Below, one piece after another: positions 1-18,364 of a DNA stretch of 64,000 nucleotides. Positions within the stretch are counted from its first letter, which is position 1. The number at the start of each line of letters is the position of its first letter. The stretch lies in assembly GCA_949358305.1 (NCBI GenBank), contig OX442323.1, positions 558,001 to 622,000 on the forward strand, written 5' to 3'. The translations under genes and the position numbers were made by a program. Source of the stretch: Strigamia acuminata (taxonomy: Eukaryota; Arthropoda; Chilopoda; Geophilomorpha; Linotaeniidae). The notes beneath the pieces are model-generated. The model searched no databases and was not told the origin of the DNA. It saw nothing but the letters and a program-made list of their open reading frames with translations.

Positions 1-39
1 AACTAAATTATTTCACTTTGGAAACCGCCAGTTTCCACA
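1..39 (-). repeat. 3' LTR of the first BEL element (partial)
   Basis: These 39 bases are identical to 5593-5631, the outer end of the complete 5' LTR. They are the U3 start on the element's own strand. The remaining roughly 261 bp lie outside the window. The gag-pol stop codon is inside this segment. Confidence 0.93.
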
Positions 40-3000
40 GTCCCCCCGTCCCGGCGGACTGGAACTTCGGTTTCTACTTCGAGGTTGCACAGTCTCTGGA
101 TGGGTCTTCGAAGCAGAGTTCCATTCGACATCCGAATTTCACAGGAGCGAATCAAACCGTCTCGTCCTTCCTTCACGGAGGTGATGCGACCCAGCTTCCA
201 CGTCATTCTCGGTTTGTTCTGGTCTTCGATGATGACAACGTCGCCAACATCAAATTTCGTTTGACTTGTATTTCCACGATGTTGTCGAAGCTCAATGAGG
301 TATTCTTTGGTCCAACGATCCCAAAACCGACTCAGCAACGTCTGACGATATTTCCACGCTCTCAAAACAATTTCCTTCGATCCCGTGCCGGTTGAATACT
401 TCTGTAGTGTTGGCAGGAATGATATTCGTCTTCCTATTAAAAAATGAGAAGGGGAAAGGGGTAATTGCTCACTAGGATTATCATACACATAGGTTAAAGG
501 CCTCGAATTTACAACGGCCTCAACTTCTGCCAAAATCGTAACAAGTCCTTCGTAGTCAAGCGAGTTTTTCCCGATCGTTTTCTTCAATGTAAGTTTTACG
601 GAACGCACCATGCGTTCCCAGAAACCGCCCCACCAAGGTGCGGTCTCAACTATGTACTTCCATTTAATTTGTTTCTCCGTAACGAATCCCTGAAATTGGT
701 CTTCTGGCAAACTTTTTAAAAATAAATTCAACTCCTTATCTGCTCGTATAAATGTTTTCGCATTATCGGAATATATCGTTTTCGGGATTCCTCGCCGACA
801 AATAAAACGCTTCATTGCATCTATGAAACGTTCGGTGGACAAACTCGAAACTAACTCAAGGTGGACTGCTCTCGTGACTGCACATGTGAACAGCGCAATA
901 TACGTTTTTGCTCCTAACTTGGTGTAGAGAGGTCCGGCAAAGTCAATACCACAAATTGCAAAAGGTTCACAAGGTGTAATTCGATCCACAGGCAGTAAAC
1001 CCCACTTTTCTTTAGCCAGCCGCCCCTGTACTTTCCTGCACTGCACGCATTTGTTGATCACACTCTTGATGGTTTTTCGCGCTCGTAATACCCAAAACTG
1101 CTCTCGAAAACTGGCTAGTGTGTCGGCCAGTCCACCGTGGAGTAATCTCTCGTGTTCACCACGTATGATTAGTTTGGTAATCGGGTGCGAATGAGGAAGA
1201 ATACAGGGCTCTCGAACGTCTCGAGGCATGTCTGCCAGTTGCCATCTGTGGGTTGCTCGAATTATTTCGTTGTCATCTAGAATAGGCGCAAGTTTAAATA
1301 TTAGCGAGGTTTTTTGCAACAGTTTTTTGTTTTTTAATTGTTTAAGTTCATCTCCGAAGTTGGTTTGCTGCAAGTATTTCACCCAATATTGTTCACTTAG
1401 TTTCAGTTCGTTGTTTGTTAACGGTTCACCATTTCGAGTTTTCGTTTTCAGATTTGTTATGAATCGAAACGTCCAAGCGGTGGCTCTTTTTAATTTCTTC
1501 CAAGTGCTAAATCGAGTGTAATCGATGTCTGGTTCTGCAATTGTTATTAATGTCACTTTTACTTCTTCTTCGTCGTCCTCGATGATTGGATTCACGTTCA
1601 CGTCTTCATTTGGCCATCTCGATTCGTTGTCTGCAAGCCACGCCGGTCCTTTCAACCAAAATGGTTCTTCGGTGAGCTGTTTTACGTTCACTCCCCTCGT
1701 AACCAGGTCGGCTGGATTATCTTTCCCTGGGCAGTGGCGCCAATCGTCTCTCGATGTATTTTCGACAATTTCTCGTACACGATTGTACACGAATGTCGCT
1801 GGTCGGTTTTTGGTGTCGCGGATCCAGTGCAAAACTATCTTGGAATCGGTCCAAATTGTGAAATCTTCACACCCAAGAGTCGCTTTCAATGTTGGAATCA
1901 GTCTTGTTGCCAGTAGCGCGCCCATCAGTTCCAGCTTTGGTAATGTTAGTTCCTTTACAGGCGCCACTCTACACTTGGAAATGATAAAATCAACATTAAC
2001 AGTATTTGTTTCGTCCAGAACTCGAGTGTAGGCTACTACGCCATACGCTCTCGGACTGGCATCACAGAAGATGTGAATCCTTTTCCCACAATTTCCTCCC
2101 CAATTTAATAATTTGCGCTCTAAATTTAAATTTTCGAGGTAGGGTATCTGAACATACCAATTTTCCCATTTTATCTTCACATATTCTGGAATGACGTCAT
2201 CCCACCCAACATTTAATTTCCAAAGTTCCTGAAAAATAATTTTAGCAGTTATCACAAAGGGGTTTGCCATTCCCAACGGGTCAAAAATCATGGCGGTAAT
2301 TCTTACAATAAATCTCTTGGTGTATTTGGTCAAGTTAATCTCGTTAATCAATGCACTAATGTCTAATCCCAATTTATCTAACTCAATATCCCAAACTACC
2401 CCCAAAACCTTAGTTTTCTTTTGAAAAACTGTCACGTCACAATCTGGGTCATCTCGTATAATTTTCTCTTGTAATTTCACATCATTCGACTTCCATTTGG
2501 TTAATTTCATGTTCGCGGCTTGCAAAATCTCACGACTCTCATCATAAATTTGAATTAACTTGTTCGAATTGTCAATACTTGTTACAAAATCGTCTACATA
2601 CAAGTCTTCTTTCAGCTTGTCGCATGTGTCCGGGTATTGGTCTTCAAACTTGTCGACGTGTTCTTTTACTGTTGCATTTAGTAAAAATGGACTGGGTCCT
2701 GTCCCAAATGGAACTCGAGTTTGGCGTAATTCAATTAGTTTTACCGACTCTTCACCGTTCCACCCGTCCTCAATCCAATAAAGTCGTGTGACGTCTCGTT
2801 CGTCCGTCTTGAGATGTATTCGATGGAAGGCTTTCTCGATGTCGCCGATTGCGCCGTATTTGCCGGTTCGGAACTTCAAAACAATGTTTATTAGATGAGG
2901 TAACATATTCGGACCCTTACTCAGACAGTCGTTTAGCGATAAACATCCTTTTGCGTGTGACGACGCGTCATACACAATCCTTAGCTTTGTTGTGGCTCGA

Positions 3001-5282
3001 GTTTCGTCAATTACTGGTCGATGAGGGATATAATACGGGTTGTCTGGTTTCGAGTTCTTCGGAACTTTTTCCAAGATTCCGGAGGCGAGTTGTTCGTCGA
3101 TCACTTTTTTATAGTCTAAATACAATTTGGGATTTTTTCGGAAACGGTTAATTAAGCTCCACAAACGCTTTTTTGCGACATCTCGATTGTCGCTCAATTC
3201 TTTGCGGTCGATCTTCCACGGGAATCCCACTTCGTAATGGTCATCCACCCACTCAATCTGGTCTTTGAAGCGTTTCAACGTGTCCACTTCATCGATTCCC
3301 GGTTCCATAGTCTCGTGACGAATCCCAATCGACTCCAAGTTCCAAAATTTCTCTAAAAGTTCGTTTGTATTATCGGCAACAATCACTTTATTTACCCGCA
3401 CCAAAGATGACATTGTTGTTTCTGTCTTCCCAGCTGATCCGTGCAGTGTCCAACCAAAGATGGTTTCGATCGCCATCAAATTTTCGTCGATACGCTGCTG
3501 TTTTCCCGTTGTAACGCGCCAAAAGTTGTCGACGCCGATCAAAATGGACACTCCATCGTCTCGTTGAATGTTGCTATCGTGGGTTAGTTTAATATCGAAT
3601 TTTCTTAACTTTTCCATCACCTGCTCATCTGGTTTTCCATGTAGGGTCGGCGTTATCCAAGGTGATTCGAGGGCTTCGATCTCTAAACTACAATTTCTAT
3701 TTTCACAGTTATTCAAACTCAATTTCACCTTTTTCCTTTTTGTAATTGTTGGCTCAGTGGATCCGAAAGTCAAGAGGGCGAGGGATTGTTCTCCAGTTTT
3801 TTCCAGTTGTAATTCGCGCGACAGTTTTTCTGTGATGAAACTTCTTTGTGATCCCCCATCCAAAAAACACTGGACTTTTCTTTTCTTGTTGCTTCCGTTG
3901 GCTTCCAGAACGACGACTTGCAGGAACATCACGGTTTCCATAGCTGTAGACTCTTGTACGGCTGAAGTTAAAGTTGTTTCTGTTTTCTTCGTGTCTTCTT
4001 TGTCGCACAAATACGTGTGATGTTTCTGCTCACATTTTCGGCATTTAAATCGGGTGTTGCATTGGCGAGCCTGATGATTCTCTTTTAAGCATCGATAACA
4101 ACGTCGGGCCTTGAAACACGCTTCCTTTCGTTTCTCCACGGACAACGGACAGTCTGGACTCTTGTGATCTTCTTTCTCGCAAAACGTGCATTTGTAGACA
4201 ATGTTGGAGAGGGCTGAAGCGGAACTGTGATTATTAGACTTGTAATTGGTTTTCTTCACTTCTTCCTTTCTGGTATTCGGAGCTTCCGTCGATTCTTGTG
4301 TTTTATTATTGGTTTTGTCTGCGGCTTCCGTACGCTCCCTCATCGCGACCTCGAATCTGAAGAAATCAAGAAATTCTTTTACTTTCCACGGCGCATCTCC
4401 TCGTGGACGCGCAAAATCGTGCTGGATACTGTTTGGTACAGCACGCGCTAATATTGGGCACAACAATGGTCCAAAGGTTTCCGCAGGTACGCCGAGGTTC
4501 TCGAGACTTTTGATGTGGAGGTCGCAAAAGTCGTACAGCTTCCGTAACGCCGTTATATCCTCCGCTCGTTTCACTGGTTGCATCTCGAGGAGTTTTGCCA
4601 TGTGTGCACCTACAATCTGTTCTTTTTGACCAAAACGATTAGTTAAAAGTTCTATTGCAGTGTCATAGTTGAGTTCCGTCACGGTGAGCCCGCTAATTGC
4701 ATTTGCTGCGAGTCCCTCGACGAGTGAGCGCAGATACACAAACTTGGCGGTTTTGGGTAAAGCTGTATTGTTGTGCACGCTCAATTCAAAATCGGACCAG
4801 AACCCCGTCCAGGTTTCCGGCGTGCCTTTAAACTTGGCGACCTCGAGCTTCGGCAGTTTCATCACTGCACATTGCGGTTGAATTGGGTTTGGGTTTTGCA
4901 CAGGTGGAACGAAAAGAGGGTTAACTGGTGGTATATTTACGAGTGGTACTTGCGGTGGTTGTTGTGGTGGTGTTTGTTTCATTTGCGCGAGTTCTTTCAA
5001 GGCGACTTCGAGTGTGATTCGGGCGGCGGTCATCTCGTCTTGTAGTTCTTCCGCTTCGAATTCGTCTTGGTCCACCTCGTTCACGTCGGTGATCCCGTCG
5101 GCGATTATTGTGTCCAGTTTATCGATTTTCAAACGTTTTGTGATTAGTTGGGCTTGTATGCATAATAATCGTACCTCGTTGAGGGGATCCTCGGCCATTT
5201 CTTTCTTCAATTTCGCAAAAAGCGCACGCACGCTCCTTCTCTGTGTTTCCCTTTGTGCACGACTTCTTGCCAAATCGTCCAT
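3..5282 (-). CDS. gag-pol: BEL/Pao Gag-Pol polyprotein
   Basis: Single frame of 1759 aa from the first ATG (5280-5282); the frame is open 8 codons further upstream but without an ATG. An N-terminal coiled-coil-like charged region and a proline-rich linker (about 100-140) precede a DUF1759-like Gag domain (about 140-320). Three zinc knuckles follow (about 365-426; two C-X2-C-X4-H-X4-C and one C-X2-C-X4-H-X3-C). The protease Asp is in FLDGGSQRSF (about 473-482), where the usual S/T after Asp is G. Reverse transcriptase spans about 760-920 with a first Asp in GDIEKAF and YVDD at 895-898. An A17-like connecting region is followed by RNase H (about 1070-1195; Asp 1074, Glu 1118, Asp 1146, Asp 1189). 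Integrase has an HHCC finger (about 1375-1420) and catalytic D1447, D1506, E1556, then a DUF5641-like tail (about 1645-1735). No stop or frameshift interrupts it, so it looks functional. It should provide capsid, processing, reverse transcription and integration. The last codons run into the 3' LTR. Confidence 0.95.
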   Translation of the reverse strand: MDDLARSRAQRETQRRSVRALFAKLKKEMAEDPLNEVRLLCIQAQLITKRLKIDKLDTIIADGITDVNEVDQDEFEAEELQDEMTAARITLEVALKELAQMKQTPPQQPPQVPLVNIPPVNPLFVPPVQNPNPIQPQCAVMKLPKLEVAKFKGTPETWTGFWSDFELSVHNNTALPKTAKFVYLRSLVEGLAANAISGLTVTELNYDTAIELLTNRFGQKEQIVGAHMAKLLEMQPVKRAEDITALRKLYDFCDLHIKSLENLGVPAETFGPLLCPILARAVPNSIQHDFARPRGDAPWKVKEFLDFFRFEVAMRERTEAADKTNNKTQESTEAPNTRKEEVKKTNYKSNNHSSASALSNIVYKCTFCEKEDHKSPDCPLSVEKRKEACFKARRCYRCLKENHQARQCNTRFKCRKCEQKHHTYLCDKEDTKKTETTLTSAVQESTAMETVMFLQVVVLEANGSNKKRKVQCFLDGGSQRSFITEKLSRELQLEKTGEQSLALLTFGSTEPTITKRKKVKLSLNNCENRNCSLEIEALESPWITPTLHGKPDEQVMEKLRKFDIKLTHDSNIQRDDGVSILIGVDNFWRVTTGKQQRIDENLMAIETIFGWTLHGSAGKTETTMSSLVRVNKVIVADNTNELLEKFWNLESIGIRHETMEPGIDEVDTLKRFKDQIEWVDDHYEVGFPWKIDRKELSDNRDVAKKRLWSLINRFRKNPKLYLDYKKVIDEQLASGILEKVPKNSKPDNPYYIPHRPVIDETRATTKLRIVYDASSHAKGCLSLNDCLSKGPNMLPHLINIVLKFRTGKYGAIGDIEKAFHRIHLKTDERDVTRLYWIEDGWNGEESVKLIELRQTRVPFGTGPSPFLLNATVKEHVDKFEDQYPDTCDKLKEDLYVDDFVTSIDNSNKLIQIYDESREILQAANMKLTKWKSNDVKLQEKIIRDDPDCDVTVFQKKTKVLGVVWDIELDKLGLDISALINEINLTKYTKRFIVRITAMIFDPLGMANPFVITAKIIFQELWKLNVGWDDVIPEYVKIKWENWYVQIPYLENLNLERKLLNWGGNCGKRIHIFCDASPRAYGVVAYTRVLDETNTVNVDFIISKCRVAPVKELTLPKLELMGALLATRLIPTLKATLGCEDFTIWTDSKIVLHWIRDTKNRPATFVYNRVREIVENTSRDDWRHCPGKDNPADLVTRGVNVKQLTEEPFWLKGPAWLADNESRWPNEDVNVNPIIEDDEEEVKVTLITIAEPDIDYTRFSTWKKLKRATAWTFRFITNLKTKTRNGEPLTNNELKLSEQYWVKYLQQTNFGDELKQLKNKKLLQKTSLIFKLAPILDDNEIIRATHRWQLADMPRDVREPCILPHSHPITKLIIRGEHERLLHGGLADTLASFREQFWVLRARKTIKSVINKCVQCRKVQGRLAKEKWGLLPVDRITPCEPFAICGIDFAGPLYTKLGAKTYIALFTCAVTRAVHLELVSSLSTERFIDAMKRFICRRGIPKTIYSDNAKTFIRADKELNLFLKSLPEDQFQGFVTEKQIKWKYIVETAPWWGGFWERMVRSVKLTLKKTIGKNSLDYEGLVTILAEVEAVVNSRPLTYVYDNPSEQLPLSPSHFLIGRRISFLPTLQKYSTGTGSKEIVLRAWKYRQTLLSRFWDRWTKEYLIELRQHRGNTSQTKFDVGDVVIIEDQNKPRMTWKLGRITSVKEGRDGLIRSCEIRMSNGTLLRRPIQRLCNLEVETEVPVRRDGGTVETGGFQSEII
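40..50 (-). promoter_or_regulatory. Polypurine tract (plus-strand primer site)
   Basis: The minus strand reads GACGGGGGGAC immediately before the TG that opens the 3' LTR. This is the expected place and composition for the RNase H-resistant primer of plus-strand DNA synthesis. It lies inside the coding frame, since gag-pol continues through it for about a dozen more codons. Confidence 0.8.
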
Positions 5283-5313
5283 TTTCGCGTTCTGGTTCGT
5301 TTTCAAAAATGTT

Positions 5314-5331
5314 TCCCGGGTTTCGGCACCA
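5314..5331 (-). promoter_or_regulatory. Primer binding site, tRNA-Phe type
   Basis: On the minus strand TGGTGCCGAAACCCGGGA directly abuts the CA end of the 5' LTR. It is complementary over 18 nt to the 3' end of metazoan tRNA-Phe(GAA), including its CCA, as I recall that tRNA. It fixes the LTR boundary and the element's orientation. Confidence 0.87.
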
Positions 5332-5631
5332 TGAGACGTTGCACGAGCAACTTGTATAAATGAAACACTCCTAAAACTTGTTAAAACGACGGATGGAGTC
5401 GGATTCGGATCGAAGTTTGTTGTAGACTCAAAGAAACGATGTAGACAAGGTTACATTTGAAAAGACAGTGAGTTTTTATTCAAAATTTTAGATATATAAA
5501 ACAAGAGGATTAAGTTAATCCTTAAATTCCAATAATATAGATCCGGGTCACAAGTGAACTTTTCCACTTGCGCCACGGTGGTCAAAACACTCAACTAAAT
5601 TATTTCACTTTGGAAACCGCCAGTTTCCACA
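5332..5631 (-). repeat. 5' LTR of the first BEL element, 300 bp
   Basis: Bounded by TG...CA, it starts right after the primer site and ends where satellite resumes. The outer (U3) end carries a hairpin-capable inverted repeat, TGGAAAC and GTTTCCA separated by 5 nt (about 5611-5629). A TATA-like and a poly(A)-like signal lie in its middle. Confidence 0.93.
5475..5502 (-). promoter_or_regulatory. Putative TATA-like and poly(A) signals in the LTR
   Basis: On the minus strand TTTTATATATC (5491-5501) is followed by AATAAA (5475-5480). A TATA-like box and a polyadenylation hexamer close together are typical of a compact LTR in which R is short. The assignment is by motif only; transcription start and cleavage sites are not visible. 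Confidence 0.4.
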
Positions 5632-5738
5632 CCTTAGTAGAAGACTTCAATGTAAGTTTTAGCAACATCCAAGCACTGATTTGGGAGAATAGACTTTTGA
5701 TCTCATCACAGTTGACTTAGCACAAACACCACAAGATT

Positions 5739-8163
5739 AATGTCTCTGAATGTTCAGAAATAGTGTTTAAACCTTAGTAGAAGGCTCCAATGTAAGTTTT
5801 AGAAACATCTAACTAATGATTTGGGAGAATAGACTTTTGATCTCATCACAGTTGACTTAGCACAAACACCACAAGTCCAATGTCTCTGAATGTTCAGAAA
5901 TAGTGTTTAAACCTTAGTAGAAGACTTCAATGTAAGTTTTAGCAACATCCAAGCACTGATTTGGGAGAATAGACTTTTGATCTCATCACAGTTGACTTAG
6001 CACAAACACCACAAGATTAATGTCTCTGAATGTTCAGAAATAGTGTTTAAACCTTAGTAGAAGGCTCCAATGTAAGTTTTAGAAACATCTAACTAATGAT
6101 TTGGGAGAATAGACTTTTGATCTCATCACAGTTGACTTAGCACAAACACCACAAGACCAATGTCTCTGAATGTTCAGAAATAGTGTTTAAACCTTAGTAG
6201 AAGGCTCCAATTTAAGTTTTAGAAACATCTAACTAATGATTTGGGAGAATAGACTTTTGATCTTATCACAGTTGACTTAGCACAAACACCACAACACCAA
6301 TGTTTCTGAATGTTCAGAAATAGTGTTTAAACCTTAGTAGAAGGCTCCAATGTAAGTTTTAGAAACATCTAACCAATGATTTGGGAGAATAGACTTTTGA
6401 TCTCATCACAGTTGACTTAGCACAAACACCACAAGACCAATGTCTCTGAATGTTCAGAAATAGGGTTTAAACCTTAGTAGAAGGCTCCAATGTAAGTTTT
6501 AGAAACATCTAACTAATGATTTGGGAGAATAGACTTTTGATCTCATCACAGTTGACTTAGCACAAACACCACAAGACCAATGTCTCTGAATGTTCAGAAA
6601 TAGCGTTTAAACATTAGTAGAAGGCTCCAATGTAAGTTTTAGAAACATCTAACTAATGATTTGGGAGAATAGACTTTTGATCTCATCACAGTTGACTTAG
6701 CACAAACACCACAACACCAATGTTTCTGAATGTTCAGAAATAGTGTTTAAACCTTAGTAGAAGGCTCCAATGTAAGTTTTAGAAACATCTAACCAATGAT
6801 TTGGGAGAATAGACTTTTGATCTCATCACAGTTGACTTAGCACAAACACCACAAGTCCAATGTCTCTGAATGTTCAGAAATAGTGTTTAAACCTTAGTAG
6901 AAGGCTCCAATGTAAGTTTTAGAAACATCTAACTAATGATTTGGGAGAATAGACTTTTGATCTCATCACAGTTGACTTAGCACAAACACCACAAGTCCAA
7001 TGTCTCTGAATGTTCAGAAATAGTGTTTAAACCTTAGTAGAAGACTTCAATGTAAGTTTTAGCAACATCCAAGCACTGATTTGGGAGAATAGACTTTTGA
7101 TCTCATCACAGTTGACTTAGCACAAACACCACAAGATTAATGTCTCTGAATGTTCAGAAATAGTGTTTAAACCTTAGTAGAAGGCTCCAATGTAAGTTTT
7201 AGAAACATCTAACTAATGATTTGGGAGAATAGACTTTTGATCTCATCACAGTTGACTTAGCACAAACACCACAAGACCAATGTCTCTGAATGTTCAGAAA
7301 TAGTGTTTAAACCTTAGTAGAAGGCTCCAATTTAAGTTTTAGAAACATCTAACTAATGATTTGGGAGAATAGACTTTTGATCTTATCACAGTTGACTTAG
7401 CACAAACACCACAACACCAATGTTTCTGAATGTTCAGAAATAGTGTTTAAACCTTAGTAGAAGGCTCCAATGTAAGTTTTAGAAACATCTAACCAATGAT
7501 TTGGGAGAATAGACTTTTGATCTCATCACAGTTGACTTAGCACAAACACCACAAGACCAATGTCTCTGAATGTTCAGAAATAGGGTTTAAACCTTAGTAG
7601 AAGGCTCCAATGTAAGTTTTAGAAACATCTAACTAATGATTTGGGAGAATAGACTTTTGATCTCATCACAGTTGACTTAGCACAAACACCACAAGACCAA
7701 TGTCTCTGAATGTTCAGAAATAGCGTTTAAACATTAGTAGAAGGCTCCAATGTAAGTTTTAGAAACATCTAACTAATGATTTGGGAGAATAGACTTTTGA
7801 TCTCATCACAGTTGACTTAGCACAAACACCACAACACCAATGTTTCTGAATGTTCAGAAATAGTGTTTAAACCTTAGTAGAAGGCTCCAATGTAAGTTTT
7901 AGAAACATCTAACCAATGATTTGGGAGAATAGACTTTTGATCTCATCACAGTTGACTTAGCACAAACACCACAAGTCCAATGTCTCTGAATGTTCAGAAA
8001 TAGTGTTTAAACCTTAGTAGAAGGCTCCAATGTAAGTTTTAGAAACATCTAACTAATGATTTGGGAGAATAGACTTTTGATCTCATCACAGTTGACTTAG
8101 CACAAACACCACAAGTCCAATGTCTCTGAATGTTCAGAAATAGTGTTTAAACCTTAGTAGAAG
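5739..8163 (+). repeat. Tandem 8-monomer higher-order repeat, 1120 bp
   Basis: 5739-7043 and 6859-8163 match at an offset of exactly 1120 bp, including rare markers such as the tttaagtttt monomer with tcttatcaca, the aggg junction and the agcg/acattag monomer. Divergence begins where one side reads gattaa rather than gtccaa, and on the right where aagcc replaces aagac. Confidence 0.88.
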
Positions 8164-8297
8164 CCTTCAATGTAAGTTTTAGCAACATCCAAGCAATACA
8201 TTTTGAAAAAAAAATTTTGAGCTTATTTCACATCGCAGTTGACTTAGCACAAACACCACAAGACCAATCTCTCTGAATGTTCAGAAATAGTGTTTAA
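8151..8297 (+). repeat. 147 bp variant satellite monomer (representative)
   Basis: This subtype replaces the ctgatttgggagaatagac segment with aatacattttg, a run of nine A followed by tttt, then gagcttatttcacatcgcag, giving 147 rather than 140 bp. The same subtype recurs many times (for example near 17280, 20370, 24340, 26450, 39720, 50100, 57840). A related form reads aatccatttt (near 21240, 24060, 29720, 33810, 40580, 63500). The A9T4 tract is expected to be intrinsically bent. Confidence 0.9.
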
Positions 8298-8820
8298 ACC
8301 CTAGTAGAAGCCTTCAATTTAAATTTTAGCAACATCCAAGCACTGATTTGGGAGAATAGACTTTTGAGCTCATCACAGATGACTTAGCACAAACACCACA
8401 AGACCAATGTCTCTGAATGTTCAGAAATAGGGTTTAAACCTTAGTAGAAGGCTCCAATGTAAGTTTTAGAAACATCTAACTAATCATTTGGGAGAATAGA
8501 CTTTTGATCTCATCACAGTTGACTTAGCACAAACACCACAAGACCAATGTCTCTGAATGTTCAGAAATAGGGTTTAAACCTTAGTAGAAGGCTCCAATGT
8601 AAGTTTTAGAAACATCTAACTAATCATTTGGGAGAATAGACTTTTGATCTCATCACAGTTGACTTAGCACAAACACCACAAGACCAATGTCTCTGAATGT
8701 TCAGAAATAGTGTTTAAACCTTAGTAGAAGGCTCCAATGTAAGTTTTAGAAACATCTAACTAATGATTTGGAAGAATAGACTTTTGATCTCATCACAGTT
8801 GACTTAGCACAAACACCACA

Positions 8821-8824
8821 AGAC
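8821..8824 (+). repeat. Target-site duplication AGAC (left copy)
   Basis: AGAC precedes the left LTR and AGAC follows the right LTR (15414-15417). The uninterrupted satellite reads caccacaagaccaatg, so only one copy belongs to the empty site. Four bases is at the short end for BEL/Pao, where about 5 is usual. Confidence 0.88.
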
Positions 8825-10182
8825 TGTTTCTGGCAAGGTCGCAGGCGACAACCAGGCCAGAAGGAGGGGCGGCAATACTTGACTGCTGCTTGGCTAAAAT
8901 TGATACACAGAAGTTGGCCAAAGACTTGAAGAAATGCAAACACTGGACTTGAACTTGCTGCTTCACATGATGATCTGCCACTGGTGAGTTCAAGGAGGAG
9001 GAAGGAGGATTTTTCTACTCACTGCACATTGCTTTCTGGTTGTATAGAGAAATGAGACTTGGAGAGAAATAAAAAGCAACCATTTTATTCTCTAAATTCT
9101 TAACAAGACTACTACAATTGAATCACGAGGATTTTACAAAGAAGTCACACTTTAACAATAATAAGAAACAACAAGTGTAACTATCTCCACATTGTATAAG
9201 GACACTTGCACTTAAAGTTACAGAGGTCTCTAAGTGCTTGTAAAGAGAAATAAGTACTGCTGTTACACTAAAACTACCGTAGAAGTTAATAGTTGAAAAC
9301 ACCTAAGCCTAACAGCAAGTATTTGACATTAAATGCAAAAGTATACATTAACAACAGTCTCTAAACACAATGCTCATTGAGAACTAAATCATTCACTCTA
9401 AAACACACTGAACAACTCATAAAATAGAGAAAAGAATAAGTAAAGACATTTTAGACCAATGAGCTGGCAACTTTACAGTAAGTGCAGAAGTTAAGTTATA
9501 AATCAACACAGATAAATCTCAAACTTAACACTTTTACATTGCATAATAATTAAGTGATTAATTATTAATCAGAACCCACAAAAACTCTTTGGGATTAAAC
9601 ATTTTCTCCTCTCTTTACAGATACAAGTAGACCACTCCCACAGTAATGGCCGACAATGTAAACAGAGATCACTTGCAGAAGGATAAAAAGGCTTGAAATT
9701 AGCTCACTAGACAGGCTACACACAATCTAAGTTAACAAAACGCTTAATTGGTTAGTAATATACAGAAAACAAACAGAAATTGATTGAAACAGCTTAAAAC
9801 TGATAATAACATACATTTCTCATTCTAGTACACTTTTGCTGTCTGAGAGCATCATTACACCTTGTCACTACATTGACAGTAGTGGACTGGAAACAGGAAA
9901 ACACTTGGAAACATCAAAACATGCATAACACAGGTAAACAAGATAGAAAATAAATCCTAAGTGGATAAATAACTAATGTAAAAACTCTTTTCTTCCCAGA
10001 TTTATCCGGTCAGATCAACCAGTACTGAGAAATTCACTCAAACTAACTCAAAGAAGACTTATATTCAGATAAGTGTCTAATTAAATTCCCAATCTAAGAT
10101 AAATATTAAAAACCCTTTTTAATAATTCCAGATGACTAATTTTTAAGACGTTTAGCAGCTTTCCTTTATGTTGCTAGCAACA
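8825..10182 (-). repeat. 3' LTR of the kinase-bearing element, 1358 bp
   Basis: Same length as 14056-15413 and identical in every line compared by eye. It begins TGTTTCTGGC and ends TAGCAACA on the plus strand. The terminal 14 bp (10169-10182, TGTTGCTAGCAACA) form a perfect palindrome. A minus-strand AATAAA lies at 9084-9089. Short open frames inside it show no recognisable domain. Confidence 0.95.
9084..9089 (-). promoter_or_regulatory. Putative poly(A) signal in the 3' LTR
   Basis: AATAAA on the minus strand, about 260 bp from the U5 end. The twin copy in the 5' LTR is at 14315-14320. Motif evidence only. Confidence 0.35.
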
Positions 10183-10217
10183 TAGATTGCCGGCGAAAAG
10201 AAAGTGCGAACAACCCA
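10183..10217 (-). other. Short spacer between stop codon and 3' LTR, no clear polypurine tract
   Basis: The 35 bp between the TGA (10218-10220) and the 3' LTR should hold the polypurine tract. On the minus strand it is pyrimidine-rich (CTTTCTTTTCGCC) and ends CAATCTA before the LTR. The purine run GAAAAGAAAG is on the wrong strand. This contrasts with the clear G-rich tract of the first element. Confidence 0.6.
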
Positions 10218-13200
10218 TCATTTAGTTTGATTACTTCTGGTCTTTGATGATAATATTTGGGAGACCTCTTTCACCTTTTCGTATTCCACTCTGGGTGGCA
10301 TGATTCTTTGACGGATCAAATTTGGTATCCACGGAGGTATTCTTCGGTTGACAATCATACAACTAAGTCGAATAATTCCGTTGATGATTTTCCTTTTCGT
10401 CTCTAGGGACTTCATGGGCTTTGAGAAACATACTCGACAGGTTGGTTTGTATTTGTCGATCCCTCCTATCATCTTGACTCTGGTTTCGTGCGAAATTCGT
10501 CTTGAAAATTCAGCTTTATCTCCGCAAAAATAACATTTTGCTTGTAGTTTCACAACAGACTCGGCTAGTGGAACTAACTTGGATATCTGATCAAATGGCT
10601 TCCTCTTGAAGTCGACGTCTAATGCGGCGACTATTACCTTTTTCTTTTGCTCAGCCATTTCATTTGAAAAAGTAAAAATGTCGGGAAAAAACTGTCCTTC
10701 GTCAATTCCGATTGTCTTCACTAATTTCGTTTTTTCCACAGCATTGGTTAGGCTACTGGTCGCGATTGCTTCTCGTCGATGACCGTCGTGGGTCACGACT
10801 TCGGTTTTACTGTAACGATCGTCATTGGAGTGTTTAATTAGCAGGGACGACGTCTTCTCTTCCTTTTCTAAAAGCTTCAATAACTTGGTCGTTTTCCCCG
10901 CATACATTGGACCAATGATGAGATAAATTCCCTTTTGATTGGTTGACAAATCAATTTTCTTTTTCCAGAAATTCAGAATCACGTTTCCACTCCATCTCAC
11001 GATTGCACACAATTTTTGCAAACTGTGCACTTGATTTGTAAGTAATTCGACGTTCTTTCTCCCTGACTCTAACTGATTTCGCCCTCGTAATTCCGGCTTC
11101 ATGTCCGAGCTTGGAGTTCTGTTGACCAATCCTCCATCCTTGAACGACTTTTTCGTTTTTTGGAGGGTGGTGTCCAGTTCCTCTTTCTCCAGACCACTGG
11201 AGAGGCTCGCGGCAAAACAAGAAGGTGTGACGTCTGTCTGTTTATTCACACCGGGTTCGCCATTCATGTCGGACAGTGATTTCGGAATTAATTGGACTAT
11301 TTTGTTTTCGTCATTTTCAGGTTGATTTGAGATCACTTCTTCTTTGGACTCGACCGCCATGCAAGAAATGTTGCACGCTGCCATGTTTTCTTCAAGCGGG
11401 TTGTTTGGTTTCAGTCGACCGTTTAGAATCCACCCAAAAATTGTCTCCATTAATCCCAACTCGTCGTTGATTTTTCGGCTTCCACCTTGACAAATCTTCC
11501 ACCATGCGTTGCTTCCTAATAAGACGTCAATGTCTTCCGATTCTGACGGATGTATCTCAGCCATCTCAAGTCCGAGTGATTGGACTTGCTTTATGGCTTC
11601 TGCTCCAATTATCCCTTTGACTTTCGGGAGTGTGTCGGTTTCTAATGCAAGGATTGATGTCTTTTTTGTTCCGTGTCTTGATTGTAGTTCGAATCTAAAG
11701 ACATCATGTGTCGTCGGAACTGGCCTTTTGTTGAGCAGACACTGTGTCATCGTGTGTAGTGTCTCGATCTTTTGCATCCGGAATTTATTTACTAGTCTCT
11801 TCGTGACGTAGGAGCGATGGCTTCCTGGATCTAGTAATCCGCGGACAGGGTACATGTGTCCATTTTTCTTCACAAAAAGAGCAGTGAAGACCATCAGTTG
11901 AATCTCCACCGACTCGGTAAGCGATACATTAGTCGACACGTTTTCTTCTTTTGGTGTAATCGCTTTTTCTTTGTTGTTTTTGTTGCAGATCGATGTGTGA
12001 TGTCTTCCACCACACAAGCGACAACAAAACTTCACGGTACATTCTTTGGCTGTGTGGTTATATCTCAAGCAGTTGAAACAAAGTCGTTTCTTCTTCACTA
12101 TTTCGATCCTCGCTGGTACATCGAGATCCGCATCACAATTTGCGTGTGCGTGATCACCATCACAATAAGCGCAGGCGGGTTTGCGGTTTGGATTTAACTT
12201 GGAATTCATACTCAATTTTCCATTCTCGGAAGTCACGAATGAGGACATGGTTCCAGTTGGTCTTTCTCTTGTTTCCTTTGAAGTTTTCTCAAATTTTTCT
12301 GACTTCTTCAGATGAGCGCGCTTAAGGAGAACGCTTTCTTCCGACAATTCAGCCAGTTGTATCTCGGTTGCTACGAAGTCCAGAAAAACGTTAACATCAT
12401 CAACTTTTCCTTGATGCTTTCGGTAAAAACGTTGGGAGATCTCCGGTGGAAATTTTCTAAGTAGTTCTGGAATAAGGTACGTTCCAGTAGTGTCAACTGA
12501 CACAGACAGTTGCGCCATGGTCCGGACAGCAGATGCCAATGACGTGAATAGAGCTTTGAGTGGCTCGATTGGGTAGAGATCGAAAACGGGTTTCGACTCC
12601 CTAATCATCTTTGAAATAGCATTTCTCTGCGTGTTTTCAGAACCGAATAGACTCTCCAATGTATTTTTCGCTAATGGGTAGGCGTCATCAGTTATTGGGT
12701 ACGACTTGATTGCGGATTCTGCAGCCCCAGTGCAGCATGACCTCAGATATATAAGCTTTTCCACGTTCGAAAGCTCCGTGTTCTGATCAACTGCTGATTC
12801 GAATAAATTCGCAAAACCTCTATATTCAGTTGCATCGCCACTAAATTTGGCAATGTCGGTTTTCGGCAATCTCGTGTTTCTCCTAGATGAAGCGGACGTC
12901 TGGTTTAAACTGGAATTCTGTCCCGGATGGGAACCAAATTGCCCTGCCATTTTTCCAGACACTTTTGCTCTTTGCTTCAATAAATTTACTCTGGTTCTAA
13001 TGTCTTCAATTCGTTGAAGCCCCGCTAAATAGTCCTCTCTTTTTGACTCGTCTTTAAGAGCTTTCAATTCGTCGGCGAGATCACTCAATTGCTGGTCAAC
13101 CGTTATTTGCATGGCTTCCAGCTCTCCTCCGTCTAGAATGTTGACTGAAGATCCCAGCAGATCCTCGGCTCCTTGAGCCTTTGCTTTCCAAATGACCTCC

Positions 13201-13235
13201 TTTTCCTCGAGATCAGCAGCGGATAATGTAGCCAT
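10218..13235 (-). CDS. Gag-protease-thymidine kinase fusion protein
   Basis: 1005 aa from the first ATG (13233-13235); the frame extends 3 codons upstream without an ATG. Residues about 5-95 are charged and helical. A BEL Gag (DUF1759-like) covers about 125-300. Three zinc knuckles lie at about 355-417. A DUF1758/retropepsin-like segment follows, with its Asp in LLDPGSHRSYV (about 468-478) and the BEL-typical ETIFGWILNG near 596-605. A low-complexity linker (about 607-760) leads to a full TK1-type kinase (about 767-942). A basic 60-residue tail has no recognised domain. Polymerase and integrase regions are absent, compared with about 1280 residues after the protease Asp in the neighbouring gag-pol. 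No frameshift or stop interrupts it. Predicted role (inference): structural protein that builds particles and carries the kinase into them. Chimerism by assembly error is unlikely, since Gag and kinase share one frame inside clean LTRs. Confidence 0.92.
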   Translation of the reverse strand: MATLSAADLEEKEVIWKAKAQGAEDLLGSSVNILDGGELEAMQITVDQQLSDLADELKALKDESKREDYLAGLQRIEDIRTRVNLLKQRAKVSGKMAGQFGSHPGQNSSLNQTSASSRRNTRLPKTDIAKFSGDATEYRGFANLFESAVDQNTELSNVEKLIYLRSCCTGAAESAIKSYPITDDAYPLAKNTLESLFGSENTQRNAISKMIRESKPVFDLYPIEPLKALFTSLASAVRTMAQLSVSVDTTGTYLIPELLRKFPPEISQRFYRKHQGKVDDVNVFLDFVATEIQLAELSEESVLLKRAHLKKSEKFEKTSKETRERPTGTMSSFVTSENGKLSMNSKLNPNRKPACAYCDGDHAHANCDADLDVPARIEIVKKKRLCFNCLRYNHTAKECTVKFCCRLCGGRHHTSICNKNNKEKAITPKEENVSTNVSLTESVEIQLMVFTALFVKKNGHMYPVRGLLDPGSHRSYVTKRLVNKFRMQKIETLHTMTQCLLNKRPVPTTHDVFRFELQSRHGTKKTSILALETDTLPKVKGIIGAEAIKQVQSLGLEMAEIHPSESEDIDVLLGSNAWWKICQGGSRKINDELGLMETIFGWILNGRLKPNNPLEENMAACNISCMAVESKEEVISNQPENDENKIVQLIPKSLSDMNGEPGVNKQTDVTPSCFAASLSSGLEKEELDTTLQKTKKSFKDGGLVNRTPSSDMKPELRGRNQLESGRKNVELLTNQVHSLQKLCAIVRWSGNVILNFWKKKIDLSTNQKGIYLIIGPMYAGKTTKLLKLLEKEEKTSSLLIKHSNDDRYSKTEVVTHDGHRREAIATSSLTNAVEKTKLVKTIGIDEGQFFPDIFTFSNEMAEQKKKVIVAALDVDFKRKPFDQISKLVPLAESVVKLQAKCYFCGDKAEFSRRISHETRVKMIGGIDKYKPTCRVCFSKPMKSLETKRKIINGIIRLSCMIVNRRIPPWIPNLIRQRIMPPRVEYEKVKEVSQILSSKTRSNQTK
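10410..10937 (-). other. Thymidine kinase (TK1 type) domain of the fusion protein
   Basis: Type II thymidine kinases transfer phosphate from ATP to thymidine, giving dTMP. Visible motifs in fusion numbering from the ATG: P-loop GPMYAGKTT (775-783, Lys 781), the DDRY segment (Asp 805, Arg 807) with a following THD, and IDEGQFFPDI with the expected catalytic Glu 846. AALDVDFKRKPF matches the substrate-lid region. PLAESVVKLQAKC leads into a structural zinc site, Cys 901, 904, 933 and 936. IGGIDKYKPTC carries the thymidine-contacting loop. Every hallmark residue I can name for TK1 is present, so activity is plausible. The motifs resemble animal TK1 closely, pointing to capture of a cellular gene. 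No intron is visible over about 175 codons, which fits capture from spliced mRNA. No KEN degradation motif follows the domain. Confidence 0.93.
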
Positions 13236-14055
13236 AATCCTCACCGAGAAATGAAGAATTCAAGGATCAGTTCAGGATTCAAACTCAACTTAACTGACTA
13301 AATTGGTTAACAAGAAATTGTCTAATTCTTTAACAATCTAGGATTTACTGAACACACAAAAACAGGATGGATATCCACAAGCTGTTAACAGGATTGAAAC
13401 ACACGAGATGTTAACAGGATTGGCAATTTAACCCCCAAAATTCAATAATTAAAGGTAATTGACAATTCTCTTATTTTCACAATTGAGTTTCTGACTAGAT
13501 ACTCGTTTTAAATTGGGATACCAACACTAAAGCTTGGTATTATTCACTAATTCACTGGATATTCTCTAAATTCCACAAACTGGAATCGAGAATTTATTCA
13601 AACTGTTAAGACTTAAACTTCTTCTCCCCCCAACTACACCAGTTTCTAATCAAAAACTCCTTTGAAATGATTACAGCAGCAAATTCGGATATTATTCTAT
13701 TTAAATAATAATTCTTAATAATTATTTCTTCAAATCTTCTTGTAGGATGTACATTGCGTTGTGTTTGGAATTGATTGTCGTGCAGGATCGCTCGTACTCT
13801 CGAAGCCTTGCTTGATCCAAGTTGAAAAACCTCTTGACCATCTTGACAATTTGAGAATCCAACTTGAAAAACCCACTTTTTTGCCTGTGAAAGGCGGACG
13901 AGAGCATACACTTCACTGTAGTGGCACAGCTTCAATGGCACTTTACACATAAAAGCTTTGCACAGCTTGAGAACAAAACCCACTGATGAATTTTGCAGCA
14001 CACATGAAGGTCCACTGAGATAACTGGAAGAAATCCTGGGTTCACGGCACCAAAT
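13236..14055 (-). other. Leader of the kinase-bearing element
   Basis: 820 bp between the 5' LTR and the Gag ATG. It starts with the primer site and otherwise holds no recognisable domain. It probably contains packaging and dimerisation signals, as retroelement leaders do, but none can be located by eye. A 64-codon frame (13722-13916) and a longer one that begins in the LTR (13606-14106) have no family resemblance and are treated as chance. Confidence 0.6.
14042..14052 (-). promoter_or_regulatory. Primer binding site, tRNA-His-like
   Basis: On the minus strand, 3 nt after the 5' LTR, TGGTGCCGTGA is complementary to 11 nt of the 3' end of animal tRNA-His (acceptor stem, discriminator and CCA) as I recall it. 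The match stops there (next bases ACCCAGG). The match is shorter than that of the first element and the tRNA identity is less sure, but position and TGG start fit. Confidence 0.7.
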
Positions 14056-15413
14056 TGTTTCTGGCAAGGTCGCAGGCGACAACCAGGCCAGAAGGAGGGG
14101 CGGCAATACTTGACTGCTGCTTGGCTAAAATTGATACACAGAAGTTGGCCAAAGACTTGAAGAAATGCAAACACTGGACTTGAACTTGCTGCTTCACATG
14201 ATGATCTGCCACTGGTGAGTTCAAGGAGGAGGAAGGAGGATTTTTCTACTCACTGCACATTGCTTTCTGGTTGTATAGAGAAATGAGACTTGGAGAGAAA
14301 TAAAAAGCAACCATTTTATTCTCTAAATTCTTAACAAGACTACTACAATTGAATCACGAGGATTTTACAAAGAAGTCACACTTTAACAATAATAAGAAAC
14401 AACAAGTGTAACTATCTCCACATTGTATAAGGACACTTGCACTTAAAGTTACAGAGGTCTCTAAGTGCTTGTAAAGAGAAATAAGTACTGCTGTTACACT
14501 AAAACTACCGTAGAAGTTAATAGTTGAAAACACCTAAGCCTAACAGCAAGTATTTGACATTAAATGCAAAAGTATACATTAACAACAGTCTCTAAACACA
14601 ATGCTCATTGAGAACTAAATCATTCACTCTAAAACACACTGAACAACTCATAAAATAGAGAAAAGAATAAGTAAAGACATTTTAGACCAATGAGCTGGCA
14701 ACTTTACAGTAAGTGCAGAAGTTAAGTTATAAATCAACACAGATAAATCTCAAACTTAACACTTTTACATTGCATAATAATTAAGTGATTAATTATTAAT
14801 CAGAACCCACAAAAACTCTTTGGGATTAAACATTTTCTCCTCTCTTTACAGATACAAGTAGACCACTCCCACAGTAATGGCCGACAATGTAAACAGAGAT
14901 CACTTGCAGAAGGATAAAAAGGCTTGAAATTAGCTCACTAGACAGGCTACACACAATCTAAGTTAACAAAACGCTTAATTGGTTAGTAATATACAGAAAA
15001 CAAACAGAAATTGATTGAAACAGCTTAAAACTGATAATAACATACATTTCTCATTCTAGTACACTTTTGCTGTCTGAGAGCATCATTACACCTTGTCACT
15101 ACATTGACAGTAGTGGACTGGAAACAGGAAAACACTTGGAAACATCAAAACATGCATAACACAGGTAAACAAGATAGAAAATAAATCCTAAGTGGATAAA
15201 TAACTAATGTAAAAACTCTTTTCTTCCCAGATTTATCCGGTCAGATCAACCAGTACTGAGAAATTCACTCAAACTAACTCAAAGAAGACTTATATTCAGA
15301 TAAGTGTCTAATTAAATTCCCAATCTAAGATAAATATTAAAAACCCTTTTTAATAATTCCAGATGACTAATTTTTAAGACGTTTAGCAGCTTTCCTTTAT
15401 GTTGCTAGCAACA
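14056..15413 (-). repeat. 5' LTR of the kinase-bearing element, 1358 bp
   Basis: Twin of 8825-10182 at a constant offset of 5231 bp. It should hold the promoter; no convincing TATA box could be singled out. The palindrome TGTTGCTAGCAACA recurs at its outer end (15400-15413), followed by the AGAC duplication. Confidence 0.95.
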
Positions 15414-15417
15414 AGAC
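15414..15417 (+). repeat. Target-site duplication AGAC (right copy)
   Basis: Matches 8821-8824. The satellite monomer then continues in phase with caatgtttctg. Confidence 0.88.
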
Positions 15418-15978
15418 CAATGTTTCTGAATGTTCAGAAATAGTGTTTAAACCTTAGTAGAAGGCTCCAATGTAAGTTTTAGAAACATCTAACTAATGAT
15501 TTGGGAGAATAGACTTTTGATCTCATCACAGTTGACTTAGCACAAACACCACAAAACCAATGTTTCTGAATGTTCAGAAATAGTGTTTAAACCTTAGTAG
15601 AAGGCTCCAATGTAAGTTTTAGAAACATCCAAGCACTAATTTGGGAGAATAGACTTTTGATCTCATCACAGTTGACTTAGCACAAACACCACAAGACCAA
15701 TGTCTCTGAATGTTCAGAAATAGTGTTTAAACCTTAGTAGAAGGCTCCAATGTAAGTTTTAGAAACATCTAACTAATGATTTGTGAGAATAGAATTTTGA
15801 TCTCATCACAGTTGACTTAGCACAAACACCACAAGACAAATGTCTCTAAATGTTCAGAAATAGTGTTTAAACCTTAGTAGAAGACTTCAATGTAAGTTTT
15901 AGCAACATCCAAGCACTGATTTGGGAGAATAGACTTTTGATCTCATCACAGTTGACTTAGCACAAACACCACAAGATT

Positions 15979-18364
15979 AATGTCTCTGAATGTTCAGAAA
16001 TAGTGTTTAAACCTTAGTAGAAGGCTCCAATGTAAGTTTTAGAAACATCTAACTAATGATTTGGGAGAATAGACTTTTGATCTCATCACAGTTGACTTAG
16101 CACAAACACCACAAGTCCAATGTCTCTGAATGTTCAGAAATAGTGTTTAAACCTTAGTAGAAGACTTCAATGTAAGTTTTAGCAACATCCAAGCACTGAT
16201 TTGGGAGAATAGACTTTTGATCTCATCACAGTTGACTTAGCACAAACACCACAAGATTAATGTCTCTGAATGTTCAGAAATAGTGTTTAAACCTTAGTAG
16301 AAGGCTCCAATGTAAGTTTTAGAAACATCTAACTAATGATTTGGGAGAATAGACTTTTGATCTCATCACAGTTGACTTAGCACAAACACCACAAGACCAA
16401 TGTCTCTGAATGTTCAGAAATAGTGTTTAAACCTTAGTAGAAGGCTCCAATTTAAGTTTTAGAAACATCTAACTAATGATTTGGGAGAATAGACTTTTGA
16501 TCTTATCACAGTTGACTTAGCACAAACACCACAACACCAATGTTTCTGAATGTTCAGAAATAGTGTTTAAACCTTAGTAGAAGGCTCCAATGTAAGTTTT
16601 AGAAACATCTAACCAATGATTTGGGAGAATAGACTTTTGATCTCATCACAGTTGACTTAGCACAAACACCACAAGACCAATGTCTCTGAATGTTCAGAAA
16701 TAGGGTTTAAACCTTAGTAGAAGGCTCCAATGTAAGTTTTAGAAACATCTAACTAATGATTTGGGAGAATAGACTTTTGATCTCATCACAGTTGACTTAG
16801 CACAAACACCACAAGACCAATGTCTCTGAATGTTCAGAAATAGCGTTTAAACATTAGTAGAAGGCTCCAATGTAAGTTTTAGAAACATCTAACTAATGAT
16901 TTGGGAGAATAGACTTTTGATCTCATCACAGTTGACTTAGCACAAACACCACAACACCAATGTTTCTGAATGTTCAGAAATAGTGTTTAAACCTTAGTAG
17001 AAGGCTCCAATGTAAGTTTTAGAAACATCTAACCAATGATTTGGGAGAATAGACTTTTGATCTCATCACAGTTGACTTAGCACAAACACCACAAGTCCAA
17101 TGTCTCTGAATGTTCAGAAATAGTGTTTAAACCTTAGTAGAAGGCTCCAATGTAAGTTTTAGAAACATCTAACTAATGATTTGGGAGAATAGACTTTTGA
17201 TCTCATCACAGTTGACTTAGCACAAACACCACAAGTCCAATGTCTCTGAATGTTCAGAAATAGTGTTTAAACCTTAGTAGAAGCCTTCAATGTAAGTTTT
17301 AGCAACATCCAAGCAATACATTTTGAAAAAAAAATTTTGAGCTTATTTCACATCGCAGTTGACTTAGCACAAACACCACAAGACCAATCTCTCTGAATGT
17401 TCAGAAATAGTGTTTAAACCCTAGTAGAAGCCTTCAATTTAAATTTTAGCAACATCCAAGCACTGATTTGGGAGAATAGACTTTTGAGCTCATCACAGAT
17501 GACTTAGCACAAACACCACAAGACCAATGTCTCTGAATGTTCAGAAATAGGGTTTAAACCTTAGTAGAAGGCTCCAATGTAAGTTTTAGAAACATCTAAC
17601 TAATCATTTGGGAGAATAGACTTTTGATCTCATCACAGTTGACTTAGCACAAACACCACAAGACCAATGTCTCTGAATGTTCAGAAATAGGGTTTAAACC
17701 TTAGTAGAAGGCTCCAATGTAAGTTTTAGAAACATCTAACTAATCATTTGGGAGAATAGACTTTTGATCTCATCACAGTTGACTTAGCACAAACACCACA
17801 AGACCAATGTCTCTGAATGTTCAGAAATAGTGTTTAAACCTTAGTAGAAGGCTCCAATGTAAGTTTTAGAAACATCTAACTAATGATTTGGAAGAATAGA
17901 CTTTTGATCTCATCACAGTTGACTTAGCACAAACACCACAAGACCAATGTTTCTGAATGTTCAGAAATAGTGTTTAAACCTTAGTAGAAGGCTCCAATGT
18001 AAGTTTTAGAAACATCTAACTAATGATTTGGGAGAATAGACTTTTGATCTCATCACAGTTGACTTAGCACAAACACCACAAAACCAATGTTTCTGAATGT
18101 TCAGAAATAGTGTTTAAACCTTAGTAGAAGGCTCCAATGTAAGTTTTAGAAACATCCAAGCACTAATTTGGGAGAATAGACTTTTGATCTCATCACAGTT
18201 GACTTAGCACAAACACCACAAGACCAATGTCTCTGAATGTTCAGAAATAGTGTTTAAACCTTAGTAGAAGGCTCCAATGTAAGTTTTAGAAACATCTAAC
18301 TAATGATTTGTGAGAATAGAATTTTGATCTCATCACAGTTGACTTAGCACAAACACCACAAGAC
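15979..18364 (+). repeat. 18-monomer higher-order repeat (2527 bp), element-free copy
   Basis: 15979-17944 matches 6859-8824 (offset 9120), and 17941-18364 matches 15414-15837 (offset 2527). The two offsets differ by 6593 bp, exactly the second element plus its 4 bp duplication. The unit is 2527 bp, that is 17 monomers of 140 plus one of 147. This copy is therefore the empty-site sister of the copy that carries the kinase element. Confidence 0.87.

Follow-up and report, generated by a model that had tools for sequence, protein, structure and literature searches.

In the genome of the centipede Strigamia acuminata a thymidine kinase (TK) of the TK1 type stands behind Gag and protease in the single long open reading frame (ORF) of a multicopy BEL/Pao-derived element with long terminal repeats (LTRs). 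The member described here lies within a stretch of 64,000 nucleotides (assembly GCA_949358305.1, contig OX442323.1, positions 558,001 to 622,000 of the forward strand; the whole stretch is called the window), for which an earlier note, made from the letters alone, had reported an unbroken frame of 1005 amino acids at positions 10218-13235 and had read it as a kinase captured by a BEL/Pao element. The open frame is borne out and runs on the minus strand, the plus strand across the same positions being riddled with stops. The explanation that we favour, and hold with moderate confidence, is that of a non-autonomous BEL/Pao element whose kinase, carried behind Gag and protease, would supply thymidine monophosphate (dTMP) for reverse transcription, while an autonomous lineage of the same genome, here called lineage P, would provide the functions of the polymerase gene (pol) in trans.

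The frame encodes Gag, protease, linker, kinase and tail in this order (Table 1). Its Gag is of the BEL type, as the note had it, both by its DUF1759 match and by its grouping with lineage P and other BEL Gags in the tree described below. Zinc knuckles and protease could be upheld in part: the motifs are present and the region aligns, at 27% identity across 490 positions, with the gag-pol product of the window's second BEL element, but the CCHC knuckle stays below the Pfam cut-off (E 0.14) and Pfam reports no protease family in this copy, which belongs to what we call family A. In the related family B the protease segment is matched by Asp_protease_2 (E 7.6e-4) and DUF1758 (E 0.005), both likewise below the cut-off. 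The protease motif is D-P-G-S, not D-[S/T]-G; LLDPGS was present in all 33 ORFs compared, and D-P-G-S recurs in a further family, F, and in lineage P. The A-type knuckle motifs were found in 30 or 31 of the same ORFs and are lacking in the B copies. As for the kinase, the earlier assignment holds for the features that it named: in addition to the PF00265 match the domain retrieves cytosolic thymidine kinase chains from PDB (best E 5e-43), and the P-loop, DEGQFF, the four cysteines of the TK1 zinc site and the lasso are all there. Pfam finds no reverse transcriptase (RT), RNase H or integrase in the ORF, whose stop codon lies only 35 bp before the 3' LTR, and the sole further frame of at least 150 codons in the element has 166 codons and spans leader and LTR. 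The designation as a BEL/Pao element is thus right as to Gag, LTRs and target duplication but incomplete, as the element has no RT, RNase H or integrase of its own, and we therefore class it as a non-autonomous BEL derivative that would have to be mobilised in trans rather than as a full BEL element.

The matching LTRs and the target duplication that the note described are found, identical over the full LTR length. A 140-bp tandem satellite flanks the element (region 5000-25000) and by its composition continues to the end of the window. The second BEL element of the window seems to have its LTR-like start, TGTGGAAACTGGCGG, repeated at both ends.

Table 1. Features of the kinase-bearing element and of its surroundings in the window
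Feature	Position	Strand	Remarks
Second BEL element	3..5450	-	open 1815-codon gag-pol frame (stop to stop), without TK; at satellite edge
Target site duplication, downstream copy	8821..8824	.	AGAC on plus strand
3' LTR	8825..10182	-	1358 bp, TG...CA; identical to 5' LTR
Pre-LTR motif TTTTCGCCGGCAATCTA	10183..10199	-	abuts 3' LTR upstream; partly common to B, F and lineage P
Single ORF, Gag-protease-linker-TK-tail	10218..13235	-	open, 1005 codons and stop
C-terminal tail, basic	10221..10415	-	residues 941-1005; first part common to families B and F
TK1-type thymidine kinase domain	10425..10928	-	residues 770-937; PF00265 E 3.5e-54
DEGQFF motif	10686..10703	-	residues 845-850
P-loop GPMYAGKTT	10887..10913	-	residues 775-783
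Linker, fast-evolving	10941..11417	-	residues 607-765; BEL alignment ends at 606; dN/dS 0.48-0.66 for residues 641-764
Protease-like segment	11418..11873	-	about residues 455-606; LLDPGS from residue 467; alignment to window BEL gag-pol
Gag cysteine/histidine knuckles	11985..12173	-	residues 355-417; sequence and alignment to window BEL
DUF1759, BEL/Pao Gag domain	12420..12845	-	residues 131-272; Pfam E 1.8e-17
Leader, 820 nt	13236..14055	-	
Primer binding site candidate TGGTGCCGTGAACCCAGG	14035..14052	-	3 nt past 5' LTR; judged by position and form
5' LTR	14056..15413	-	1358 bp, TG...CA, starts TGTTGCTAGCAACA; identical to 3' LTR
Target site duplication, upstream copy	15414..15417	.	AGAC on plus strand

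The fusion is not confined to the window. In the 237.5 Mb of genome that were examined (157 contigs, the window included) the whole 1005-codon frame is free of stops in all 46 scored matches, the best of 1369 candidates, which lie on many contigs; the possibility raised by the note, that only this copy exists, is thereby removed. When 150 of 205 candidates from a search with the kinase were scored, the matches fell by their open frames into family A (1013 or 1009 amino acids), family B (995 or 1002 amino acids), truncated copies, and short frames that we call C, D and E, with the 190-codon frame of family E accounting for 40 of the 150 and spread over many chromosomes. The TK of family B is 56% identical to that of A, and the two families have the same architecture. 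Where parts of the two LTRs, about 680 bp long, could be compared, they proved identical in 25 of 28 A copies; L015 differs at 3, L027 at 2 and L030 at 28 of 1358 positions, the last probably on account of an LTR shared in tandem with a neighbour. There, at C8:7.132-7.140 Mb, a pair of A elements from different subfamilies lie near each other and apparently have an LTR in tandem in common. Target duplications of 4 or 5 bp were found in all 13 readable copies of 14 taken, and a stretch of about 104 bp directly beyond the 3' LTR matches the satellite in 18 of 30 A copies (window copy counted) but not in the remaining 12. With their own target duplications and identical LTR parts the A copies are independent recent integrations, and for the same reason, given that so many are intact, the fusion is no artefact of assembly.

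The pre-LTR motif in its A/B form (at most one mismatch) occurs 98 times in the genome, and in 91 cases a listed TK is no more than 1.5 kb away. The 7 junctions without one are L054, a relative of B that lacks the first part of TK with the frame preserved; L055 and L058, which are B copies truncated or interrupted just past the edge of TK and retain residue 804 onward; L056, with a B remnant; L057, the end of a family F element followed by a B remnant; a junction on C127 that by its position is part of the interrupted A copy L050; and one at C6:8646325. Similarly, 37 of 40 scored matches (of 116) to the LTR and primer binding site (PBS) are followed by TK. The 3 matches without TK where it was expected were considered as possible autonomous elements bearing this LTR and rejected: L050 and L052 belong to family A and have an interrupted TK, L051, an A copy cut short behind the leader, has 107 bp left, and no long pol frame was seen in the 4.5-4.6 kb read for these. 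Two decayed Gag-TK copies, L045 (C1:37.50 Mb) and L046 (C1:45.92 Mb), lie remote from the satellite zones and are, in our reading, older members of the lineage; L046 appears to adjoin a copia-like frame.

But where would the missing pol functions come from? On contig C72 a BEL integrase end (L059, 2-859) adjoins a family F element, and a search with this end, in which 136 of 1295 places were scored, defines lineage P, many of whose copies are open frames of 1750-1783 amino acids. The Gag-protease of P (L060) is 37-38% identical to those of A and B, as against 29% to that of the window BEL element, and has a D-P-G-S-H-R motif in common with A and B. A tree built from 32 Gag sequences, 7 of this genome and 25 of 78 database matches, and rooted at the midpoint only, unites L054 with families A, B and F in a single group (97/90), which P joins (100/100). 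The window BEL element, tried as the closest helper, was rejected, its Gag being 27% identical and P the closer. Lineage P also occupies the same niche: when contigs C1-C13 apart from C7 are considered, 112 of 120 P copies have at least one of the 92 A/B places from the TK family search at a distance of 500 kb or less, as compared with 2 of 145 best-scoring BEL pol genes, a non-random set taken from the top 150 of 1068 candidates. Moreover, the ends agree in part. Shortly 5' of TGTTGC, two of the four P classes read (1751 and 1783) have TTTCGCCGGCAAT and the other two TCGCCGGCAAT or TCGCTGGCAAT; at the junction itself the P classes have CGCCGGCAATTC or CGCTGGCAATTC, and family A CGCCGGCAATCTA, each followed by TGTTGC, so that this start and the preceding GGCAAT are common to A and the P classes read. 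P is the likely helper that would supply pol functions to A and B, the ties between P and their mobilisation, namely sister Gags, pre-LTR motif and satellite niche, being correlative.

Family F (L059, L057) bears on the history of the fusion. Its Gag-protease is 46% identical to that of A and its tail is common with A (E 7e-9); at the place of TK it has a short stretch that resembles the P-loop region (E 0.003, a weak match), and Pfam finds no TK in it. Because the Gags of A, B and F make up one clade, the simplest account would be a single capture before these families split, followed by loss of TK sequence in F and in L054.

The source of the kinase is less readily traced. In a tree of 38 TKs (five families of this genome and 33 of 120 listed among 5723 profile-search matches in the protein database) the five genome families form one group (99/95), with A and B (98/97) beside C and the pair of D and E (97/77), and this group stands near a TK of Oikopleura and a metagenomic one (88/90; long branches). 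The note had proposed to place the kinase in a tree with the TK1 of the host; it could be placed with the four other families, while a host TK1 was not found among the 100 listed of 175 matches to a DEGQFF codon pattern (control 1) and may be among the other 75. Ten listed DEGQFF places were new with respect to the TK search: six agree in codon form with one of the known families, L045 and L046 are the decayed copies mentioned above, and L047 and L048 were rejected on reading as chance matches. Family C is preceded by a BAF gene, and four of its five copies are accompanied, in a constant order, by PIF2 and thymidylate synthase (TS), in blocks on C5 (twice), C3 and C13. PIF2 we take to be a mark of large DNA viruses of arthropods, of the baculovirus or nudivirus kind, and because of its presence we regard family C as belonging to an endogenous virus. 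These blocks (C5:11.12-11.27 Mb and 11.58-11.76 Mb, C3:1.82-2.01 Mb and C13:1.19-1.61 Mb; loci L037, L038, L053) have frames for TK, TS and PIF2 that are open, and their BAF gene has a short intron. The fifth BAF-TK copy, at C13:7.71 Mb, has no PIF2 or TS matches nearby; outside the viral blocks there is a full-length TS frame at C1:53.01 Mb, as well as many decayed TS pieces. Families D (L031, L032, L039-L042) and E (L033, L043, L044) are intronless dispersed TK repeats whose copies share 1.7-2.6 kb, with no LTR or transposase recognised in the copies examined. A search of viral contigs gave no close TK relative and 8 distant TKs at 30-35%. The donor may have been host or virus.

The kinase evolves under constraint. 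In three pairs of sequences from the two A subfamilies (1013 versus 1009 amino acids) the ratio of replacing to silent substitution rates (dN/dS) was 0.07-0.12 for Gag-protease, 0.48-0.66 for the linker and 0.18-0.22 for TK, and a pair of B copies gave 0.08, 0.54 and 0.17, respectively. The check proposed by the note, whether dN/dS between copies lies below 1, thus comes out in favour of purifying selection. The excess of silent changes in TK points the same way (binomial p 3.5e-4 for 14 silent and 12 replacing, and 4.5e-4 for 12 and 9; p 0.25 for the linker in the same test). Among 30 A copies the corresponding ratio of polymorphisms (pN/pS) was 0.08 for Gag-protease, 0.32 for the linker and 0.24 for TK, with zero stops. 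The tail gives no signal of constraint, with 0 silent and 4-5 replacing changes between the A subfamilies and a dN/dS of 0.62 in the B pair. The usual P-loop is found in 32 of the 33 ORFs, L036 having GLM instead, and DEGQFF, both cysteine pairs and the lasso are present in all 33.

How might such an enzyme serve the element? In the ancestor of A, B and F a TK1-type kinase would have taken the place of pol behind Gag-protease in a single event. The element encodes its own Gag-protease-TK polyprotein, and RT and integrase would come in trans, most likely from lineage P. As a part of Gag the kinase would probably enter the particle, or act in the cell before assembly, so that thymidine would be phosphorylated and thymidine triphosphate made available to reverse transcription where cellular pools are low. 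Supply of dTMP for reverse transcription is our best guess at its role. A bolder version, which we put forward tentatively, is that a kinase in the Gag particle would bring dTMP and that Gag and kinase would be traded for polymerase and integrase, both provided by a sister element of the shared satellite. As an endogenous large DNA virus and two other dispersed repeats have TKs of this clade too, nucleotide salvage would then have been a repeated prize for selfish DNA within a single host.

Several observations weigh against this explanation. LTR pieces of A and B gave no blastn match to the 3' LTR region of P (L059, one P copy), and the primer sites of A and P are alike, not identical. Family F holds an apparent TK remnant only, so relatives without the whole TK have left copies, and L054, 84% identical to B and without the first part of TK, nevertheless has an open frame of 855 codons. 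The excess of silent changes in TK comes from changes that are not independent, the copies being kin, and is set against a null of site counts with no transition bias. Finally, a segment that reads ALDG almost without variation when 29 TKs of the database are aligned with A is ALDV in A and ALNG in B, and we therefore use the term TK1-type in the sense of descent.

An active kinase might also serve another end, raising the nucleotide (dNTP) supply of the whole cell, aiding the helper or a co-resident DNA virus, or overcoming a limit that the host sets on dNTPs. That two dispersed families and an endogenous virus with PIF genes have TKs of the same clade agrees with this, as nucleotide supply seems to matter in this genome, and we grant it a modest chance; the fusion to Gag, however, points to the particle, and common descent is all that ties A and B to the other TK families. 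Slightly less likely is that the domain can no longer phosphorylate nucleosides and is retained in Gag for structure or nucleotide binding, for instance as an oligomerisation module. TK1 proteins are tetramers, both A and B depart from ALDG, and the tail behind TK is common even to F, which has lost most of the domain; yet the P-loop, DEGQFF, cysteines and lasso are retained beyond what a scaffold would need. It is quite improbable that TK is an unselected passenger amplified by hitch-hiking. The youth of the copies has left little time for decay and relatives without a whole TK do exist, but dN/dS is lower in TK than in the adjacent linker, and TK is whole in both A and B, A and L054, a relative of B, being only 53% identical over 748 positions. 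An assembly misjoin or a lone chance fusion can be set aside in view of the 46 whole-frame copies on many contigs and the target duplications that each of the 13 readable copies has of its own.

Apart from these matters, four tandem units of TTAGGN gave 49 matches in the genome as compared with 13 in the control, none of which forms part of a long array of TTAGGG or TTAGGC. The mitochondrial COX1 gives a sensible reading when AGA is translated as serine, and this, taken with the PIF-bearing virus, points to an arthropod; a weak resemblance of COX1 to that of chelicerates was also noted.

Elements with parts of this plan are known. Plant TR-GAG elements have LTRs and GAG without pol, as does family A, which differs by its captured enzyme; we know of no captured enzyme in TR-GAG elements. 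In acutely transforming retroviruses a captured gene fused to Gag replaces pol and makes the virus dependent on a helper. These are the nearest mechanistic analogy; they are short-lived, however, whereas A, B and F have had time to diverge since the TK fusion, which is inherited in many copies. dUTPases occur within retroviral and retroelement polyproteins and likewise represent nucleotide metabolism, with another enzyme and reaction and in elements that keep pol, which is absent here. Most other BEL/Pao elements (78 database Gag matches and the window BEL element) have DUF1759, and knuckles and protease region likewise. None of the 78, the best about 28% identical, lists PF00265, and a TK-fused retroelement was found in none of 3296 candidates from the protein database (proteins 0.55-1.75 times the length of the ORF), in agreement with the note, which knew of no BEL/Pao element with a TK1 fused to Gag. 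A literature search, with subscription journals mostly outside its reach, listed no report of a TK in a retroelement.

The closest parallel is the wheat element RLG_Quinta, which is non-autonomous, has an intact GAG and a DUF1 domain without RT or integrase, and is centromeric together with the autonomous RLG_Cereba (PMC11302176). Like Quinta, family A is multicopy, keeps an intact GAG and an extra domain, has no RT or integrase, and shares the niche of its presumed partner, P. Unlike Quinta, it belongs to BEL/Pao, lives in an arthropod and has a thymidine kinase as its extra domain; its PBS and LTR ends are similar to those of P where the wheat pair has identical PBS and LTR termini, and instead of a conserved second LTR half its LTR body is unlike that of the one P copy compared. 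Because the LTR bodies differ and the primer sites are unequal, the correspondence with a helper pair as defined for wheat (PMC11302176) is partial, and P remains a likely partner.

If our explanation holds, nucleotide supply would limit retrotransposition enough for selection to act on the element itself, and a captured enzyme could replace pol permanently when a helper is near. The finding raises the testable question of whether dNTP supply in and around the particle limits reverse transcription in the germ line, and it would give the Cereba/Quinta pair of wheat a parallel in an animal.

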